A program made the position numbers and the translations under genes. From Candidatus Mcinerneyibacteriota bacterium (GTDB lineage Bacteria; AUK180; JAQVHJ01): 5,089 nt of DNA. The notes under the pieces were generated by a model. It did not search any database. It was not told the origin of the DNA and worked only from the letters and a program-made list of their open reading frames with translations. Location of the stretch: the NCBI GenBank assembly GCA_030630935.1, contig DAOVMD010000261.1, forward strand, positions 1 to 5,089, given 5' to 3'. Positions 2,816 to 3,991 of this stretch are shown here, one piece after another. The number at the start of each line of letters is the position of its first letter. Position 1 is the first letter of the stretch.

Positions 2816-3991
2816 ATGTCAGGGAGAATAATCATAGGAGTTACAGGATCCATTGCTGCATTTAAATCTTTAGAACTTGTCCGAATGCTTGTTAAAAACG
2901 GGAAAGAGATAGACGTAATTTTAACAGAAGCCGGGGAAAGATTTATTCCCAAGGTAAATTTCAAATCATTTACATCAGGGACAGTGGCTTCCGATCTCTG
3001 GTCTGAAGAAGTTAATCAGCCTATTCATATTAAATTATCAAAAGCTGCGTCAATTTTGGTAGTGGTTCCTGCATCTGCAGATTTTATTGCAAAAGCCGCA
3101 GCTGGTATTGCTGATAATCTTTTATTGTCAACCTTTTTAGCTTTTAATGGACCTAAAATCATTGCACCTGCAATGAATCCCAATATGTATAAGAACCCTA
3201 TAACTCTTAGAAATATTAGAACTCTCCGTAAATTCGGAGTTGATTTTATTGAACCCACCACCGGGTATATGGCTGATTACTTGATTGGAGTTGGGCACCT
3301 GGCTGATTTACAGGATATCTTTGATTATATTGAGAAGTACGAAAGAAAGCAAGTTTTAAAAGGGAAGAAAGTATTAATAACTGCCGGTGGGACGAGGGAA
3401 TTTCTTGACCCGGTTAGATTTATTGGTAATCCATCAACCGGAACAATGGGTATTGAGCTAGCACGTGAGTTTTGGAAGTTTGGTGCTGAAGTAAAATTGA
3501 TATCAGCAAATATCTCAAAACAGATTCCAAGTTATATTAAGAATATAGAAGTCATTAATTCGGAAGAGATGTTGAAAGTAGTAAGAAAAAACTTTAAAGC
3601 CTCAGATATATTTGTTTCAACTGCTGCAATCTCTGATTTCACACCAAGGACTCCGAAGAAAGTGAAAATAAAAAAATCAACTGACTTGAAAGAGATAAAG
3701 CTTAAAAGAACAATTGATATAATTAAAGAAATCTCTAAGCATAAAGGTAAGAAGAAAATAATAGGTTTTGCTGCTGAAACATTAAATCTTGAATCTGAAG
3801 CAGAGCACAAATTGATTGAAAAGAAGTTAGATTTAATAGTTGGAAATTATGTAGGAAAGAATAGGGGTTTTGGTGAAATTACTTCAGAAGGAATAATTTT
3901 AGGAGAGAAAACAAGAATTGAATTTTCGGGCTTAACAAAACCTGAATTATCCCGAAAAATACTTGAAGTGATACTTCAAGTTTGGTACTGA
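2816..3991 (+). CDS. coaBC: Bifunctional CoaBC (phosphopantothenoylcysteine synthetase/decarboxylase), atypical CoaC active site
   Basis: Two-domain coenzyme A enzyme: CoaB joins 4'-phosphopantothenate to cysteine using CTP, and CoaC, an FMN flavoprotein, decarboxylates the product to 4'-phosphopantetheine. Length 391 residues is close to the usual ~400. The CoaC half (1-175) has GVTGSIAAFK (8-17), His71 in HIKLSKAA (equivalent to E. coli His75), the FMN-site run PASADFIAKAAAGIADN (85-101), and PAMNPNMY (118-125) with Asn121 (E. coli Asn125). The substrate flap, normally LACGDVGEGRM, reads MADYLIGVGHL (152-162), so the catalytic Cys (E. coli Cys158) is Asp154. The CoaB half (181-391) has GKKVLITAGGTRE (183-195), GNPSTGTMG (204-212) with Asn205 but Thr210 for the usual Lys, KIKK (284-287) and GFAAET (317-322). 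No frameshift is visible. CoaB probably works; CoaC activity is uncertain. Confidence 0.93.
   Translation: MSGRIIIGVTGSIAAFKSLELVRMLVKNGKEIDVILTEAGERFIPKVNFKSFTSGTVASDLWSEEVNQPIHIKLSKAASILVVVPASADFIAKAAAGIADNLLLSTFLAFNGPKIIAPAMNPNMYKNPITLRNIRTLRKFGVDFIEPTTGYMADYLIGVGHLADLQDIFDYIEKYERKQVLKGKKVLITAGGTREFLDPVRFIGNPSTGTMGIELAREFWKFGAEVKLISANISKQIPSYIKNIEVINSEEMLKVVRKNFKASDIFVSTAAISDFTPRTPKKVKIKKSTDLKEIKLKRTIDIIKEISKHKGKKKIIGFAAETLNLESEAEHKLIEKKLDLIVGNYVGKNRGFGEITSEGIILGEKTRIEFSGLTKPELSRKILEVILQVWY
3961..3981 (+). repeat. Perfect inverted repeat at the 3' end of coaBC, possible weak terminator
   Basis: ACTTGAAG and CTTCAAGT form an 8-bp stem around a 5-nt loop (TGATA), inside the last ten codons of coaBC. 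Only three of the eight pairs are G-C and the stem is followed by just two T before GG; the next T-rich run (CTCTTTTTCTCTT) begins about 12 nt later. It could be a weak terminator or an mRNA-end stabiliser for the operon, but chance is possible. No better terminator is seen before the next promoter. Confidence 0.3.

Follow-up and report, generated by a model that had tools for sequence, protein, structure and literature searches.

We consider it quite probable that the CoaBC protein encoded in the window (the whole stretch of 5,089 nucleotides analysed here) is a working bifunctional enzyme and the organism's only PPC decarboxylase, and that it completes the reductive step without a cysteine, taking the proton from another group, most likely Asp154 or Tyr155. 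In the textbook account the cysteine of the substrate flap is catalytic. The window belongs to a 3.16 Mb draft genome (471 contigs, about 80% complete) in which the region is present in a single copy. Its coaBC gene (2816..3991, forward strand) encodes a 391-residue fusion of CoaC (PPC decarboxylase, PF02441, 110 bits) and CoaB (PPC synthetase, PF04127, 200 bits). The TIGR00521 profile matches residues 4-386, covering both halves, at 390.7 bits (curated cut-off 219.7 bits). According to the alignment with E. coli Dfp, the key residues of the CoaB half are retained (Asp198, Arg201, Asn205, Asp274, Lys284 and Lys287), and Asn205, Arg201 and Lys284 correspond to the active-site Asn210, Arg206 and Lys289 of the E. 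coli protein. The AlphaFold model has a mean pLDDT of 90.8 and finds its top PDB match in M. smegmatis CoaBC (6TGV). However, since it is a single chain without FMN and does not show the inter-subunit active site, the model does not decide between proton donors. Taken together, the protein is most likely a complete and single CoaBC, with predicted activity. As for its neighbourhood, a RemA-like regulator (1944-2198) is flanked by genes for a YicC-type endoribonuclease and guanylate kinase. The common gene order elsewhere is gmk-rpoZ-coaBC; here the gap between gmk and coaBC is only about 9 bases (2807-2816), so that there is no rpoZ between them.

The position of the missing cysteine is well defined. 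Against E. coli Dfp (from NC_000913), the alignment pairs His75 with His71, Asn125 with Asn121, Cys158 with Asp154, Gly159 with Tyr155 and Arg165 with His161, and the register is identical when solved PPC decarboxylases are aligned by HMMER. The original prediction, which called the register secure and read a Cys to Asp change at codon 154, a neighbouring Gly replaced by Tyr and an Arg by His, is thereby borne out. All of the relevant features lie on the forward strand. His71 (3026..3028), needed in the first half-reaction, is His in 151 of 151 CoaBCs. Asn121 (3176..3178) is part of a PAMN motif; for the equivalent Asn, binding of the substrate carboxylate has been described (PMC6168597). Within the flap MADYLIGVGHL (3269..3301), the position of E. 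coli Cys158 and Arabidopsis Cys175 is taken by Asp154 (GAT, 3275..3277). It is followed by Tyr155 (TAC, 3278..3280), which is invariant in the class and is a candidate alternative proton donor, while Ala153, Gly158 and Gly160 are held. The form LACGDVGEGRM, previously given as the normal flap, is adequate as a consensus but not for E. coli itself, which has QACGDIGPGRM. Thus, the window protein resembles Dfp in domain order, in the His75/Asn125 pair and in the CoaB active-site residues, and differs from it in having Asp154-Tyr155 instead of Cys158-Gly159 and His161 instead of Arg165. As had been noted, the translation contains no other cysteine: the whole protein has none, which rules out a takeover of the role by another Cys.

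Could the Asp codon be a sequencing or assembly error? The assembly is a draft in 471 contigs, and the region is represented in one copy. Nonetheless, we find this explanation extremely improbable, because the reading frame is open, GAT is at least two base changes away from any Cys codon, and five CoaBCs of the same class (35-47% identical to the window protein) also lack the cysteine. All five have LASY at the site, that is, Ser154 followed by Tyr155, and the survey of 151 sequences contains six with Tyr155, a number equal to that of the window protein plus its five class relatives. In a tree of 232 CoaBCs, built with residue 121 and flap columns 152-157 left out, the window protein falls into a six-member class clade (support 99), enclosed in a nine-member clade (support 98). 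None of the nine members has Cys, and in two of the three that lie outside the class clade the residue at the site is Asp (LADL). Judging from this tree, the loss of the flap cysteine in the clade is old, and the Asp/Ser154-Tyr155 flap is, on the sequences compared, a class-specific variant. The expectation that no read error is involved, and that close relatives would not be found to keep the Cys, therefore holds, and by the same comparison the error explanation, as far as the loss of Cys is concerned, is already refuted. The change at this site is real and probably functional. The choice of Asp over Ser at position 154 is seen in the window genome alone, since no CoaBC was found in the sole genome of the same family (72% complete).

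The original prediction also treated the loss as unusual, and this view does not survive a broader survey. A survey of 151 CoaBCs spanning the bacteria found Cys at residue 154 in 111, Ser in 20, Glu in seven, Asp in six, Ala in three, and Gly, Thr, Met and Arg in one each. With the window left out, 98 of 126 families have only Cys, 28 are Cys-less and none is mixed, although the Cys-less share may be inflated because the sample was chosen by similarity to the window protein. Asp154 itself occurs in at least three other families. Among named genomes, Ser154 together with Asp121 is found in 27 of 28 Bacteroidota, Asn154 in some Bacillota and Ser154 in several Chloroflexota. The remaining genome of the Bacteroidota, a Bacteroidales MAG (L068), keeps Asn121 and Cys154, which may reflect either transfer or a misassigned contig. 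In cultured Segatella, Spirosoma and Runella only one HFCD gene is present per genome, with Ser at the site. These proteins are thus naturally Cys-less and the only HFCD of their genomes, as is the window protein, but unlike it they have Ser154, Asp121 and, in most cases, Gly155. M. smegmatis CoaBC (6TGV), the best structural match of the model, is likewise a full-length protein without the flap cysteine; it differs in having Gly154 at the Cys position (TGADSG) and His121 in place of Asn (PAMH). Silencing of coaBC in M. tuberculosis is bactericidal (PMC8205227). The available part of the 6TGV structure paper describes the flap and leaves the missing Cys without comment, and a literature search that did not extend to the principal mechanistic papers on the E. 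coli and plant enzymes found no discussion of natural loss of this residue. In four loci (L025, L029, L189 and L241) the Cys-less flap is two residues above the usual length, as in LATASEGEGMGRM. As judged from the sequences surveyed, the loss is widespread, ordinary variation and not a singular event, and the flap cysteine is not a defining feature of the TIGR00521 family as it stands.

If the window protein did not carry out the complete reaction, another route to 4'-phosphopantetheine would have to exist. The decarboxylase half might be dead or stalled at the enethiol, with a separate CoaC or imported pantetheine completing the pathway. Indeed, in the plant and yeast enzymes the second half-reaction is blocked when Ser takes the place of Cys (PMC9604783; 1MVN). 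However, the first-half residues are conserved, and the window genome encodes no PF02441 protein besides this CoaBC. Six of the seven genomes of the class have exactly one such protein and the seventh (72% complete) has none. A second CoaC was found neither in the window genome, where one could be missing from view because that genome is only about 80% complete, nor in five class genomes that are over 90% complete. Accordingly, neither the separate CoaC offered earlier as an explanation nor a standard second copy that would make the loss trivial was found in the genome or the class. PanC, CoaX, CoaD and CoaE were all identified in the window genome, and its CoA pathway is complete. The search for pantothenate kinases covered CoaA-type (type I) enzymes and CoaX; no CoaA-type kinase exceeded the cut-off in the class, and the window genome had no match at all. 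CoaX is thus the sole recognised pantothenate kinase. The CoaX family is selective for pantothenate and does not use pantetheine, and in B. subtilis pantetheine is salvaged via CoaA only, not CoaX (PMC11487621). Imported pantetheine would therefore have no suitable kinase among those found, and the import of a later CoA precursor, also suggested originally, is unlikely given PanC, CoaX, CoaD and CoaE and the lack of a CoaA-type kinase. Since only one HFCD protein accompanies these enzymes and CoaX is pantothenate-selective, de novo CoA synthesis appears to require the window CoaBC all the way to 4'-phosphopantetheine, and we give little credence to a dead or stalled decarboxylase half.

Of the three explanations proposed originally, the use of another donor fits best. 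In the plant enzyme, the first half-reaction is carried out by His90 and Asn142 and the second by Cys175; yeast Cab3 with Cys478Ser fails in complementation (PMC9604783), and a crystal structure of the Arabidopsis Cys175Ser mutant contains the enethiol intermediate (PDB 1MVN). AtHAL3a of Arabidopsis (PDB 1E20) shares with the window protein the HFCD PPC decarboxylase fold and the flap register, but it is a stand-alone CoaC with Cys present. Because Cys-to-Ser is harmful in the plant and yeast enzymes, yet nearly all sampled Bacteroidota naturally have Ser, enzymes that lack Cys by nature must work by other means. In the window protein, FMN, His71 and Asn121 would oxidise and decarboxylate the substrate in the usual way, giving the aminoenethiol, over which the flap would close. 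Reduction to 4'-phosphopantetheine would then be finished without cysteine, the proton coming from another group, most likely Asp154 in the place of Cys or the adjacent Tyr155, possibly via bound water. EpiD and MrsD, the peptidyl-cysteine decarboxylases, stop at the enethiol, without a reductive step. They share the HFCD fold but match less well and are not fused to CoaB, whereas the window protein is fused to CoaB and is encoded beside gmk, remA and yicC-type genes, not as a stand-alone HFCD in a lanthipeptide cluster.

Residue 121 offers a further hint. It is Asn in all 111 Cys-bearing CoaBCs of the survey, whereas nine of the 40 Cys-less proteins have a change, to Asp in five and to His in four (Fisher p = 3e-6, uncorrected for relatedness). 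In the full set of 232 CoaBCs it is likewise never changed where Cys is kept; with correction for the tree, too few independent pairs have the support to reach significance. The change from Asn to Asp or His at PAMN is seen in L045, L050, L098, L101, L149, other Bacteroidota-type loci and M. smegmatis 6TGV. A change at 121 might possibly compensate for the lost Cys: as the equivalent Asn is described as binding the carboxylate, an acid or base here could act in proton transfer. Since Asn121 is retained in the window protein, a solution of another kind would be required there, and Asp154 and Tyr155 suggest themselves for the role.

Two observations count against the favoured reading as a whole, a complete decarboxylase with another donor: the Asp121 of Bacteroidota-type enzymes is absent from the window protein, and Ser does not replace Cys in the yeast Cab3 or Arabidopsis backgrounds. 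Moreover, no acid may be needed at 154, as Ala and Gly also occur there elsewhere. It is conceivable, though we think it rather unlikely, that no flap residue is required at all, with water or the invariant His71 protonating the enethiol in the closed pocket and residue 154 drifting freely. Such a mechanism also implies an active enzyme and differs only as to the donor. It is consistent with the variety at 154 among Cys-less proteins (Ser, Glu, Asp, Ala, Gly, Thr, Met, Arg and Asn). However, free drift does not sit well with the uniform presence or absence of Cys within families (none of 126 mixed), with the retention of Ala153, Gly158 and Gly160, with the fixation of Tyr155 in the class, or with the alteration of Asn121 only in Cys-less proteins, a hint of compensation. 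Going beyond the donor at Asp154 or Tyr155 that we favour for the window protein, it is tempting to speculate that in this class the second half-reaction of CoaC has been redesigned, so that the invariant Tyr155, aided by Asp/Ser154, replaces Cys as the donor. On this tentative scheme the problem would have been solved independently several times, in Bacteroidota by Ser154 together with Asp121 and in mycobacteria by Gly154 and His121.

The wider question is therefore a general one, namely how Cys-less CoaCs complete the reduction. With Cys absent from about one-fifth of the sampled families, from nearly all Bacteroidota sampled and from mycobacteria with a solved structure, the textbook mechanism misses much of bacterial CoA synthesis, and the apparent coupling between residue 121 and the lost cysteine points directly to testable mutants.
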